Shown here: positions 14,386-24,099 of the stretch, in pieces
Layout of the letters: each line of letters begins with the position of its first letter
How positions within the stretch are numbered: the first letter of the stretch is position 1
Assembly: GCA_020833245.1 (NCBI GenBank)
Contig: JAJHQQ010000004.1
Span: 1 to 47,011, forward strand
Source: Desulfurococcaceae archaeon
Lineage (GTDB): Archaea > Thermoproteota > Thermoprotei_A > Sulfolobales > Desulfurococcaceae
Direction: 5' to 3'
DNA length: 47,011 nucleotides
Notes under the pieces: generated by a model
What the model was told of the DNA's origin: nothing
Database searches by the model: none
What the model saw: only the letters and a program-made list of their open reading frames with translations
Position numbers and translations under genes: made by a program

Positions 14386-14826
14386 CTAATAAGCGTACCC
14401 TTCAACCTTTACTCTCCTGGCTTCCTCTCTAAAGTAGGCTTCTCCGACTCCCGATTGCTTGAGTCTTCTGCGCAAGTCCCTATCGTTTGTTGCGACTATA
14501 GCGCGGTTCTGAGTAGCGAAGTTAATAATAGCGTCATCAACGCTTTCGTCAGGCTTTAACGCGTAGTCGACGACTACGCAGTACTGCTCAACTAGCTTGA
14601 GTGCTAAGCGAGCTCTCTTCGCAGTAATACCCTTAGACTGCGTGGCTATTTTCACGAGCTCCTCGTAAACCGGTCTTAAAACCACGAATTCGGGTTTTGA
14701 CTCGAGCTCTTCCTCTATTTGCTCAAAAACTCGTATACCACTAGCAGCTAGCATTAACATATTTGTGTCTAGTACTACGAGCGGCCTCCTACTCGTAGAG
14801 TTCCTCGACAAAACCCCACCCTGCAA
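14386..14826 (-). CDS. PIN domain protein, Fcf1/Utp24-like
   Basis: VVLDTNMLMLAASGIRVFEQIEEEL...SVDDAIINFATQNRAIVATNDRDLRRRLKQ. Confidence 0.88.
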   Translation of the reverse strand: MQGGVLSRNSTSRRPLVVLDTNMLMLAASGIRVFEQIEEELESKPEFVVLRPVYEELVKIATQSKGITAKRARLALKLVEQYCVVVDYALKPDESVDDAIINFATQNRAIVATNDRDLRRRLKQSGVGEAYFREEARRVKVEGYAY

Positions 14827-16051
14827 GCCTCCACCTAGCTAATACGCGTCTCCCAATGGCTACTCTAGTACCCTTCCACGTTGCAATGGGCATTTCGAGT
14901 TCTAGTTCAACTCTGTCCTTACTAGTACTCTTAACAGTGGCTATTCTAGTAGCCGGCCCAATAGCCACGACTACTCTCTCGCCGGCTTGTAGTGGCGGGA
15001 GCTTAGCCTGCTGACCCCTCACATCGACGACTCTGCTGAGGGTGTTGTACGAGATCTCTACTCTCCTCGCAACTGGTATTTCGTAGTCAGCCTTTACGAC
15101 AATTGAGCCGGCTAGCTGATTAGCCTTCGTGAGGGATGGATCTATAGTTGTTCTAAGCGCGACAAGCCCTCCCGGCTTTGCCTCATCAACCTGGTATTCA
15201 CCAAACCGCATTTCCTCAATTGTTGTTGTGATTGGCGCGAGCTCGTATGAAGACGCTTTAGTGGTCTCCTTGGGCTTTTTTACTCCAGGCATGATTTTTA
15301 TCTCATCTCCTACTCGGAGAACTCCCTGTATTATTGTCCCGCCGATCACGCCTCCCTGAATCTCATCATAGCGTGTTCCAGGCCTGTTAATATCAAAGCT
15401 TCTCAGGACGTACATTATTGGCGGTGCGTCGAGGTTTCTACTGGGTTTAGGAACAAGCTTGTGTAGAGCCTCTAGAATAACGTCAATGTTGACTTTATGT
15501 AGGGCGCTCACAGGTATTATTGGCGCGTTCTCCGCGGCAGTCTCCTTAACGAACTTCTTTATGTCCTCGTAGTTCTTCAGCGCTTTATCCCTAGATACAA
15601 CGTCTACCTTGTTCTGGGCGATAATAATGTTCTTTACTCCTAGTATTTCAAGGGCCATTAAGTGCTCAATTGTCTGTGGCTGAGGACACGGCTCGTTAGC
15701 GGCTATGACTAGTATTGCGGTGTCAATTACCATTGCCCCGCTAAGCATTGTAGTCATGTAGGCCTCGTGTCCGGGCGCGTCAACGTAGCTTACTCTGCGT
15801 ATCAGTTTCGCCTCTGAGCCGTCTGGGCAAGTCAGCTCAGTTGTATAGGCGTCAGGAGGACTTAGAGTTTCACAGTAAGCAATGTTCCCGTCGGCGTAGC
15901 CGAGGAATATGGTCATTCCCCTCTCAATTTCCATGCTGTGTCTAGCAGTCCAAATTCCCGTTAAAGCCTGGACTAGAGTTGTTTTGCCGTGGTCTACGTG
16001 GCCTACTACGCCAATGTTGATTTCCGGCTGTGGGAGCTTCAAATAGTACAC
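14789..16051 (-). CDS. Translation initiation factor aIF2 subunit gamma
   Basis: PEINIGVVGHVDHGKTTLVQALTGIWTARHSMEIERGMTIFLGYADGNIAYCE. Confidence 0.97.
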   Translation of the reverse strand: MYYLKLPQPEINIGVVGHVDHGKTTLVQALTGIWTARHSMEIERGMTIFLGYADGNIAYCETLSPPDAYTTELTCPDGSEAKLIRRVSYVDAPGHEAYMTTMLSGAMVIDTAILVIAANEPCPQPQTIEHLMALEILGVKNIIIAQNKVDVVSRDKALKNYEDIKKFVKETAAENAPIIPVSALHKVNIDVILEALHKLVPKPSRNLDAPPIMYVLRSFDINRPGTRYDEIQGGVIGGTIIQGVLRVGDEIKIMPGVKKPKETTKASSYELAPITTTIEEMRFGEYQVDEAKPGGLVALRTTIDPSLTKANQLAGSIVVKADYEIPVARRVEISYNTLSRVVDVRGQQAKLPPLQAGERVVVAIGPATRIATVKSTSKDRVELELEMPIATWKGTRVAIGRRVLARWRLAGWGFVEELYE

Positions 16052-16102
16052 CCTACTGGTTTAAACAGCAACTAATTTGCAGTGATTGAAATGGGAGATT
16101 AA

Positions 16103-16874: not shown

Positions 16875-16974
16875 TACTCACCACCAGCCCTGCGATGGCC
16901 TTTAAGGGTTTAAAAGCTTTGTGTGAATAATACACGGTGTTATTACCTCGTGTAGTTCTATTAGTTATAGGTGT

Positions 16975-18804
16975 GTGCTTATGTCTAGTAGTGTTAAAAC
17001 ATGGGTTAGACAGCCAATTGTAGTTGTGCTTGGCCACGTAGATCACGGTAAGACGACTCTGTTAGATAAGATCAGGGGGACTGCTATAGCGAAGAAGGAG
17101 CCAGGCGAAATAACTCAGCACATAGGCGCGAGTATTGTTCCAGCTAGCGTACTAGAAAAGATCTCAGAGCCCTTGAGAAGGTTCTTCCCCAAGTTAAAGA
17201 TCGAAATACCCGGGCTCCTCTTTATTGACACACCTGGACACGAGCTGTTTGCTAGCTTAAGGAGGCGTGGAGGTAGCGTAGCCGACATCGCTATACTCGT
17301 CGTCGATGTATTAGAGGGGATAATGCCTCAGACGGTTGAGGCGTTAATGCTATTAAAGGAGAGAGGAGTACCCTTCATTGTAGCAACTAATAAAATAGAT
17401 AAAATACCCGGCTGGGTTTCAAACCCCGATACACCATTTCTCGAGAGTATTAGAAAGCAGAGTCCGCGCGCAGTAAATGAGCTTGAAAATAAAGTGTACG
17501 CGATTATAGGAAAGCTATACGAGTATGGGTATCAAGCAGAGAGATTTGACAGAGTGAGAGATTTTAGGACAACTATCCCTATTGTCCCAATATCGGCGAG
17601 AACCGGGGAGGGGCTGCCAGAGCTACTAGCACTAATTGCGGGCTTAGCACAGCAGTTTATGAAGAAAAAGCTCATTACGAGCAGTGAGCCGGCTAAGGGA
17701 GTAGTCTTAGAGGTTAAAGAGGAGCCTGGACTAGGCGTGTCAATAGACGCTATTATATACGATGGCGTCATTAAGAGAAACGATCTGTTTATAGTGGCGT
17801 CTAAGACCGGGTATATATTTACACACGTGCGGGGGCTCCTATTACCCAGACCGCTCCAGGATATGAGAATGCACGAGGGCAAGTTCATAAGTGTTGAAGA
17901 GGTGTACGCGGCGGCTGGAGTTAAAATAGTGGCTCCGGGACTAGAAGACGCTATTGCCGGTTCACCTCTATACGTTGTTCCTCGACCTGAAGACCTAGAT
18001 ACCTACTCTAAAATAGTGCGAGAGGAGGTTTCACAGGTTGTCTTTAGAAGTGAGAGCGATGGCATAGTGGTTAAAGCCGACACTCTCGGCTCACTGGAAG
18101 CACTAGTTACAGCCTTAAGGAGAGAGAACATTCCCATAAAGCTCGCAGACGTGGGAAATGTGTCTAAAAACGACGTAATCGAGGCAAGTGTAGTCAAGAA
18201 ATCTAAACCCGAGTACGGCGTAATATTAGCCTTCAACGTGAAGATCCTCGAGGAAGCCAGAGAACTCGCAGAGAGAGAGCAGGTGCAGGTTTTCTCCGAG
18301 AACGTCATCTACAGGCTCCTAGAGAACTTCTTGAAGTGGCTCAGAGACTACAAGTTAATTGAAAACCAGAAAGTTCTTGAAAGCCTCGTGCGCCCAGCTA
18401 AAATTAAGATTCTACCAGGCTGTGTCTTCAGGCGTAGTGACCCAGCAATAGTAGGCGTAGAAGTAGTCGAGGGCACTATTAAGCCCGGATACCCGCTTAT
18501 GAGGTCTGATGGAGTTGGAGTAGGCAGTATTATGCAAATTAGAGACAGGGATAATGTCCTTAAAGAGGCAAGGAGAGGCCAGCAAGTTGCAATTAGCATT
18601 AAGGGTAAGATACTAGTGGGAAGACACGTTGACGAGGGAGACATACTCTACACTGATATACCCAAAGAGCACGTTGTACAGTGGTTAACGGCTTTTTCAG
18701 GGAAGCTAACTGAAGACGAGAAAGAGGCTCTTGGAGAGATAATTAATATTAAGAGGAGCTCAGACCCCCTCTACGGCATGGTTTTTCAGCACTCACAGCA
18801 GTGA
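16975..18804 (+). CDS. infB: Translation initiation factor aIF5B (IF2-like)
   Basis: VRQPIVVVLGHVDHGKTTLLDKIRGTAIAKKEPGEITQHIGASIVP; no intein seen. Confidence 0.97.
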   Translation: MLMSSSVKTWVRQPIVVVLGHVDHGKTTLLDKIRGTAIAKKEPGEITQHIGASIVPASVLEKISEPLRRFFPKLKIEIPGLLFIDTPGHELFASLRRRGGSVADIAILVVDVLEGIMPQTVEALMLLKERGVPFIVATNKIDKIPGWVSNPDTPFLESIRKQSPRAVNELENKVYAIIGKLYEYGYQAERFDRVRDFRTTIPIVPISARTGEGLPELLALIAGLAQQFMKKKLITSSEPAKGVVLEVKEEPGLGVSIDAIIYDGVIKRNDLFIVASKTGYIFTHVRGLLLPRPLQDMRMHEGKFISVEEVYAAAGVKIVAPGLEDAIAGSPLYVVPRPEDLDTYSKIVREEVSQVVFRSESDGIVVKADTLGSLEALVTALRRENIPIKLADVGNVSKNDVIEASVVKKSKPEYGVILAFNVKILEEARELAEREQVQVFSENVIYRLLENFLKWLRDYKLIENQKVLESLVRPAKIKILPGCVFRRSDPAIVGVEVVEGTIKPGYPLMRSDGVGVGSIMQIRDRDNVLKEARRGQQVAISIKGKILVGRHVDEGDILYTDIPKEHVVQWLTAFSGKLTEDEKEALGEIINIKRSSDPLYGMVFQHSQQ

Positions 18805-21633: not shown

Positions 21634-22120
21634 TTGGAGTCACCACTACTATGGCTTTTCTGGGTACTTCCCAGGGCATATCGACTATAAATGCAACTTG
21701 CCCCTCACACTTAGACTTTACATTTCTAACTTCAAATTTGCTCGTAACGTGATAGGCAATAATATCCCCACTACTAACCTCAGAGCCCTCACTCACAAGA
21801 AAGTAAATGAATTTACCAGTAACCTCCTGTAAGCATAGAGGAGTGCCCTTTTCAATAATAAAGCCTTCAAGTTCCCGTAGTGAGGGCTCTTCGTGGAGAA
21901 CAATAATACTCCTCGCGGCCACGGCTCTCTCCAAGTCAATGTAGTCTACTACGCGCTCATATGGTACTTCTCCAAATAGCCTAGTGCACTCGGCGGATAC
22001 TTCTCTCACGTGTACTAATTTCTGATTTTTAAAGCAGATGTACTTGTTACTATTGGCGTTTTCAACGTAGACCTCGTACATCCTAGTGCTCAAAGAGGCC
22101 ACCACACCTCTTCTTCTCAA
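21596..22120 (-). CDS. Conserved archaeal protein, DUF2118-like
   Basis: MYEVYVENANSNKYICFKN...VSEGSEVSSGDIIAYHVTSKFEVRNVKSKCEGQVAFI; family name from memory. Confidence 0.7.
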   Translation of the reverse strand: MRRRGVVASLSTRMYEVYVENANSNKYICFKNQKLVHVREVSAECTRLFGEVPYERVVDYIDLERAVAARSIIVLHEEPSLRELEGFIIEKGTPLCLQEVTGKFIYFLVSEGSEVSSGDIIAYHVTSKFEVRNVKSKCEGQVAFIVDMPWEVPRKAIVVVTPSECGRVTVEKTA

Positions 22121-23216
22121 TGTACTCTGCCGGGTTAATACCTCGCTGTAGTAGGTAGTTTACTACGCTGGGACCTAAGACTAATGGTGCTTTACACGCC
22201 TCTCTAACACTTCTAACTCCCAATAGGAACATCACCGTCCTCAGTGTTGCTAAGTAGCGTGTAATAAAGCGCCTAGCCCCCTCAATACCCTGCTCTATTA
22301 GTGTCTTCAGTATTGGTCTGGCAAATCCAACTAGATTCGCTCCCAGAGTTAGTAGCTTGGCGGCTTTGAGACCGCTCCAAACACCACCACTACCTATTAC
22401 GAACAAGTCTCTGCTAACACTCCTACACTCAATTACAGATAGCGGTGTTGGAATACCCCAATTGAATAGCTCTAAACCTACATTGTGGTAAACGCTTTCT
22501 CTCTGATTCCTATACGCCTCTACGAGAGCCCAGTTAGTACCGCACGCGCCCGCGGTGTCAACATAGCGGACTCCCAGCTCGAGTAGTCTAGAGGCGACTT
22601 CCATGGAGATTCCATGACCAACTTCTTTTACTATAACTGGAACTCCTAGTTCTTGCACTACATCGCGTATCCTGTAGTAGAGGTCCTCGCCGAAGTCGAC
22701 ATCTCCCTCCGGCTGAATTGCTTCCTGCGCGGGGTTCAAGTGGACTGCTAGAGCATCGGCGCCTATAACGTCTACGAGCTTCTTTAACGCGTCGACCTCG
22801 ACTTCGCGTAGTTGAGTTATACCTATATTGCCTATAACTGGTACGCTGTGGGCTATTTTTCTGACTACTCTGTAAGTCTCAATTACGTCTTCTCTAAACG
22901 AGGTCTGCAATATTGGTCGCTGACTCCCAACACCAATAGCTATTTGATACTCGCTAGCAATTTTTGCGAGGCTCTCGTTTATTGACTTAGATGCAGGTAA
23001 ACCCCCAGTAATAGCCTCTATAATTAGAGGAAATTTCAGCTCGTAACCCAGGAATTTCACAGATAAGTCTACGTTGTCGAGACTAGTGCCCGGTATTGCT
23101 TTGTGAATCAGCATGATCTCGTTGTACACGCTATTACACGTATCGGGGAACACGACTTCATCTCTTAGACTGATCTCTATGTGATTCTGCTTCCTAGACT
23201 CAAAGTCTAGTGAAAT
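22083..23216 (-). CDS. fni: Isopentenyl-diphosphate delta-isomerase type 2; start extended to an ATT codon at 23216 (ORF track start is GTG at 23153)
   Basis: LIHKAIPGTSL...GVGSQRP...VHLNPAQEAIQPEGD; in-frame upstream SLDFESRKQNHIEISLRDEVVFPDT restores the conserved RKxxH N-terminus; GGGTGA six nt before ATT. Confidence 0.9.
   Translation of the reverse strand: MSLDFESRKQNHIEISLRDEVVFPDTCNSVYNEIMLIHKAIPGTSLDNVDLSVKFLGYELKFPLIIEAITGGLPASKSINESLAKIASEYQIAIGVGSQRPILQTSFREDVIETYRVVRKIAHSVPVIGNIGITQLREVEVDALKKLVDVIGADALAVHLNPAQEAIQPEGDVDFGEDLYYRIRDVVQELGVPVIVKEVGHGISMEVASRLLELGVRYVDTAGACGTNWALVEAYRNQRESVYHNVGLELFNWGIPTPLSVIECRSVSRDLFVIGSGGVWSGLKAAKLLTLGANLVGFARPILKTLIEQGIEGARRFITRYLATLRTVMFLLGVRSVREACKAPLVLGPSVVNYLLQRGINPAEYIEKKRCGGLFEH
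23194..23210 (-). repeat. 7-bp perfect hairpin directly after the proposed fni ATT start
   Basis: CTAGACT-TTG-AGTCTAG. Confidence 0.8.
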
Positions 23217-23238
23217 GGTGCTTCACCCAGAGTAGAGC

Positions 23239-24099
23239 TCATCGGCTACGCGTAAACTTTATACTTGCGTATCCCACAACGGCGGCCTTGTTACCCGAGA
23301 CGTCACCGCTAGTAGCATACTTTAATAGTGCTGGCTTACCTTGAAGTCTCTTCGCCACTTCTATAAGGGTCATTATCCCTCCCGGTCCACAAATGCTAAT
23401 ATTCCTCTCGATAATAGCTCTGTAGAAGCCCTGCGTGTCGAGCTCGAGAATTTTGCTAATAGCTGCCTCGTCTTTCTTTACTGTTACCTCGTGTGGCTCG
23501 TAGTGATTAAAGTCGCTTGAGGCTAATACAACGACGTCTCTGCCCAGCTCACTAGACGCTTTAAGTATGGAGTCTGCGAGGTCACCGGCGACGTCAGGCG
23601 TGTGTATACCCACGACTATAGGGAGTATTCTTACTTTATCCGCGAAAATGTATTGGAGAAACGGCAGTTGAACCTCTATGGAGTGCTCTTCTAAGTGTGC
23701 ATCTCTGTCAAGGCTCGCTATTTCACTGTACTTGGTGACGCTCTTACCGAGCTCGCTGTCAACTTCGAGATAGCCGAGCGGCGTCTCCCACCTACCCTCA
23801 GGGTATACTGAGACAGGTTCTCCTAAACCAGTGTGATTCGTACCTAGAATAATAACTGTCTGCGGTACGCCGTCTCGGGCTAGATCGTAGTAAGCGTGCG
23901 CGGCAACCGGGCCACTATACATGTACCCAGCGTGCGGGACGACGTAGCCTAGAGACAAGTGCTCTCCGCGGTCTACTGGTGAAGGGGGCTCTCCTGGCCC
24001 TAGTTTATGTCTAAACGACCACTCAATTAACTTAATGAGGTCTTCTCTCCTACTCGGGTAGAAATACCCCGCGACTACTGGGCGCCTAACACTACTCAA
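23239..24099 (-). CDS. MEMO1 family protein
   Basis: RRPVVAGYFYPSRREDLIKLIEWSF...VVPHAGYMYSGPVAAHAY...VVVLASSDFNHYEPHE. Confidence 0.93.
   Translation of the reverse strand: MSSVRRPVVAGYFYPSRREDLIKLIEWSFRHKLGPGEPPSPVDRGEHLSLGYVVPHAGYMYSGPVAAHAYYDLARDGVPQTVIILGTNHTGLGEPVSVYPEGRWETPLGYLEVDSELGKSVTKYSEIASLDRDAHLEEHSIEVQLPFLQYIFADKVRILPIVVGIHTPDVAGDLADSILKASSELGRDVVVLASSDFNHYEPHEVTVKKDEAAISKILELDTQGFYRAIIERNISICGPGGIMTLIEVAKRLQGKPALLKYATSGDVSGNKAAVVGYASIKFTRSR

Follow-up and report, generated by a model that had tools for sequence, protein, structure and literature searches.

The gene fni, for a type 2 isopentenyl-diphosphate isomerase, lies on the minus strand of the window (the whole stretch of 47,011 nucleotides analyzed here) and raises the question of where its translation begins: in the fni frame, no ATG, GTG, or TTG is found between the in-frame stop upstream and the catalytic RK motif. 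The 5′ end reads GGG TGA AGC ACC ATT TCA CTA GAC TTT GAG TCT AGG AAG CAG AAT CAC, in which nine codons (AGC to TCT) separate the TGA (23225–23223) that closes the frame from the AGG AAG encoding the RK of RKQNH. The proposed initiation codon is ATT (23214–23216), seven codons before RK, from which fni would span 22083–23216 and encode 377 aa. A Shine-Dalgarno (SD) element, GGTGA (23223–23227), overlaps the in-frame TGA and is separated from ATT by exactly 6 nt, one of the most frequent spacings in this genome. The first conventional in-frame start in the ORF list is GTG at 23151–23153 (MFPDT). Upstream on the same strand, the ORF at 23239–24099, which we take from its family to be a MEMO-like gene, ends with TGA at 23241–23239, 22 nt before ATT.

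The initial annotation had described the frame as open above GTG 23153, and re-reading bore out its positions for the stop, ATT, and GTG to the base, as well as the distance of exactly 6 nt that it had given between GGGTGA and ATT. Its further statement that no in-frame codon other than ATT is near-cognate in the interval from the stop to the RK motif holds as long as the codon for R itself (AGG) is left uncounted.

Homology and the N-terminus of fni

The protein read from ATT matches TIGR02151 with 361 bits (cut-off, 281) over profile positions 2–336 of 338, with the match beginning at residue 8, which corresponds to profile position 2. The sequence RKQNHIEI, an instance of the motif RKxxH(I/V)xI, occupies residues 8–15 and is part of the protein only when translation begins ahead of GTG 23153. 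Among solved structures, the closest is that of the Sulfolobus shibatae enzyme (2zru; E = 1.4e-73), the alignment with which starts from 2zru residue 3 and places R7 and K8 opposite R8 and K9 of the ATT-started protein. According to published work on the S. shibatae type 2 isomerase, these two residues lie near the substrate (PMC3509576). The earlier claim that a GTG start would cost the enzyme functional residues is thus upheld, with R8/K9 being the equivalents of the substrate-proximal Arg7/Lys8, and homology supports the placement of the fni start at or very near ATT.

A shorter enzyme begun at GTG 23153, with FPDTCNSVYNEIM as its N-terminus, would nevertheless be the choice of a standard gene caller, this codon being the first conventional start. 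Initiation at GTG 23153 would, however, cut 21 residues from the protein, including R8/K9, together with ~15 conserved TIGR02151 positions. Moreover, the segment upstream of this GTG has coding character (score, 14.2) and is conserved in the fni genes of relatives, and in none of the relatives read does fni start at the corresponding position. The shorter enzyme is accordingly considered very unlikely.

Start sites of fni in relatives

The gene was searched for in 60 relatives and the window's own genome, being found in 59 of these 61, and its 5′ end was read in 29 relatives. This comparison of fni upstream regions, proposed along with the initial annotation, revealed the same start site with a conventional codon: ATG, GTG, or TTG stands 5–8 codons before RK in 28 of the 29, with the ATT of the window standing 7 before. 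ATT as such is common to none of the relatives read and was seen in one assembly only. In L002, the closest relative (70% identical), AGT ACT ATG lies opposite the AGC ACC ATT of the window, a correspondence judged by eye from the frame, with automatic DNA alignment of such a short stretch being loose.

The ATG of L002 lends some weight to the view that ATT is an assembly error or a rare variant and that the codon actually present is a conventional start such as ATG, for which one G-to-T substitution would be enough; the assembly of the window's genome is, in addition, fragmented and 78% complete. This explanation is judged improbable in view of the near-cognate starts in other genes described below.

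A different near-cognate codon is found at this site in L024, the fni gene of a genome from another genus (G014), in which AAGGTG is followed by CTG 7 codons before RK. The only conventional codon near the site is a TTG directly before RK, which represents an alternative start. Two separate origins of near-cognate initiation at fni, one in the window's genome and one in L024, are therefore conceivable.

The relatives also bear on a start at the out-of-frame GTG 23226, from which the fni frame would be reached by a +1 shift at CTT TGA or, alternatively, through an extra T in the assembly (GTG...CTT TGA, encoding MKHHFTRL-stop; 23200–23226, minus strand). The CTT TGA G is in the right frame for such a shift and would give MKHHFTRLESRKQNH, and a +1 shift at CTT TGA resembles that of bacterial RF2. 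However, there is no SD before GTG 23226, KHHFTRL is unlike the N-termini of the relatives, and such an arrangement occurs in none of the relatives read; a programmed +1 frameshift start was rejected on these grounds. A shift or indel here would also leave the other near-cognate genes of the genome unexplained, and is regarded as even less probable than the shorter enzyme.

Candidate near-cognate starts in the genome

For the window's own genome (G000), all 862,650 bases were taken, with 11 short contigs masked, and were compared with ~980 kb, about two-thirds, of a genome of the same genus (G001). Candidates were identified from ortholog comparison and from coding potential in the segment preceding the first conventional codon; the comparison of all ORFs was redone after coding-score filtering, the unfiltered version having been dominated by antisense shadow ORFs. 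A contig-wide scan of the genomes returned a single match, which was distant and bacterial.

About 10 of the 857 predicted genes of G000 showed a conserved N-terminus located upstream of any conventional start and directly after an SD, with a pattern of GGTGA or AGGTG, 5–7 nt, and then CTG, ATA, or ATT—CTG in most cases. The candidate start is CTG in the genes for a DUF1616 protein (contig C65), cytidine deaminase (C52), Hjc resolvase (C50), dTMP kinase (C12), a PALP-family enzyme (C51), and an NAD-dependent epimerase (C15), and ATA in those for a ROK-family glucokinase (C51) and a PfkB kinase (C32). Support is weaker for an AIR-synthase-like protein (CTG; C22) and for a presumably PhoU-like protein (ATT; C32). 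In G001, candidate starts were found for a CinA-like protein (CTG; C2:167460–168221, minus strand), thymidylate synthase (ATT; C2:320457–321194, plus strand), and a UpsA-like pilin (ACG; C2:640394–640783, plus strand). Since ~10 further genes of the genome have the same pattern, the ATT of fni would be a class member rather than an isolated case, and appears to belong to a set of SD-guided near-cognate starts in this crenarchaeal genus.

Cytidine deaminase is the cleanest candidate for near-cognate initiation. The arrangement GAGGTGA-N6-CTG is present in three species (G000, G002, and G005), with GAGGTGA-N6-TTG at the same place in a fourth (G007), and in both G000 and G002 the conserved region is not preceded by a conventional start. 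The CTG being common to three separate assemblies rules out sequencing error for this gene and makes the class credible, and at the same time argues against a base error as the origin of the fni ATT. Furthermore, random errors would not be expected to gather at start codons, as they would have to in ~10 other genes of the same assembly with the same pattern and spacing.

A separate observation was made for endA, the gene for the tRNA-splicing endonuclease (loci L172–L197; in G000, C12:34797–35378). Most genomes of the family have a conserved GGTGA-N6-ACG at this gene, and most are without a conventional start near its N-terminus, for which initiation at ACG, reinitiation, or fusion by frameshift are candidate readings. 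The ACG of endA was left out of the secure set because the conserved bases also encode the end of the upstream gene in another frame.

SD spacing and controls

The background of near-cognate codons in this analysis is 15% per codon, such that finding one within ten codons is common and constitutes weak evidence by itself. What counts is the GGTGA directly before ATT at the spacing preferred in the genome. In G000, 184 conventional starts were placed with confidence (GTG, 75; TTG, 67; ATG, 42); of these, 101 have GGTG, most often at 5 or 6 nt before the codon (28 cases each). ATG is the least used conventional start in G000 (42/184), unlike in G001 (95/190).

Picking starts from the SD and coding score without a codon prior proved too noisy, and motif and spacing controls, the latter taken in coding segments preceding the first conventional start, were used instead. 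For the motif control, upstream coding segments of G000 were examined: of 10 codons lying 5–7 nt after GGTGA, 8 were near-cognate, compared with 17 of 86 for 16 pooled permutations of the same letters not overlapping the SD. In the spacing control for GGTGA or AGGTG in G000, near-cognate codons were found in 11 of 19 cases at 5–7 nt, fni being one of the 11, and in 13 of 130 elsewhere (Fisher p = 6.5e-6). The corresponding values for G001 were 9/21 and 23/133 (p = 0.012). The spacing controls thus indicate that a near-cognate class exists in G000 and, less strongly, in G001.

Proposed initiation from ATT and comparison with known systems

Taken together, homology, the start site in relatives, the SD spacing, and the genome-wide class support, at the level of sequence, the initial inference that ATT serves as the initiator, and we place the probability that fni is translated from ATT at roughly 0.8. 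In the proposed mechanism, the GGTGA upstream of fni would pair with the tail of the 16S rRNA and set ATT in the P site, and the CAU initiator tRNA would start the protein with methionine despite the mismatch at the third position, with the strong SD presumably compensating for the weak ATT codon; ATT would then be used in the cell, with Met inserted. G000 has an initiator-type tRNA with a CAT anticodon, which we judge ordinary for an archaeal initiator. Most simply, the register would be set by a strong SD at a fixed distance, and the initiator tRNA would accept a single mismatch. In G000 more broadly, it seems to be the SD register that fixes where translation starts, with codons differing from ATG by one base (CTG, ATA, ATT, and perhaps ACG) being tolerated in ~1% of genes.

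Bacterial genes initiated at AUU include infC and pcnB of Escherichia coli. As proposed for fni, they have an AUU start behind an SD site; unlike fni, which is an archaeal metabolic gene in a genome-wide set, they are isolated cases and are regulated. A survey of prokaryotes associated weak start codons with stronger SDs (PMC5622118), and the SD-led GUG and UUG starts described there resemble fni in combining a strong SD with a weak start codon. Of 61,358 ancestral AUG starts in the same survey, only 1 had switched to AUU and 2 to CUG (PMC5622118), numbers that will undercount near-cognates because the survey rests on annotated starts. Near-cognate switches are therefore rare in the survey, whereas ~1% of the genes in G000 appear to use near-cognate starts. 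In SD-led archaeal initiation with aIF1, the SD likewise positions the pre-initiation complex (PMC6237735). Overall, near-cognate initiation is known elsewhere, and it is its extent in G000 that is unusual.

Initiation factors

The window that contains fni also contains an aIF2 gamma-like gene (14789–16060, minus strand) and an aIF5B-like gene (16927–18804, plus strand), two putative initiation factor genes. The aIF1 gene of the genus is located in G000 at C12:28306–28527 (minus strand; locus L054). Against PF01253, aIF1 of this genus scores 64–73 bits, compared with 74–88 bits for all other genera examined, and, relative to the profile, its matches are longer by about two residues. When aligned with structurally characterized archaeal factors, aIF1 of this genus shows a two-residue acidic insertion in the β3-β4 loop, TFREEEGRIELQGD. 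A codon pattern for T(F/Y)REEEGR was found in 5 of the 8 genomes of the genus and in none of the 53 others.

Acidic loop 2, which takes part in start selection in eukaryotes, has been described as absent from archaea (PMC6237735), in contrast to the longer acidic β3-β4 loop of aIF1 in this genus. As a cause of the near-cognate starts, the insertion is a possible lead only: it could relax start selection, tighten it, or be unrelated to it. We tentatively suggest, while considering it rather doubtful, that the genus as a whole has relaxed start identity, with SD position defining the start and CTG, ATA, ATT, and ACG being used in ~1% of genes, among them conserved genes of metabolism and DNA repair, and that this goes together with a genus-specific acidic insertion in aIF1 resembling the loop 2 otherwise known from eukaryotic eIF1.

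Implications

Gene callers limited to ATG, GTG, and TTG would truncate or miss proteins begun in this way. The aIF1 of the genus offers a natural variant to test against the stringency of start-codon selection. Finally, a genome with many near-cognate starts, each at a fixed distance from its SD, would reveal the extent to which a strong SD can stand in for recognition of the start codon.
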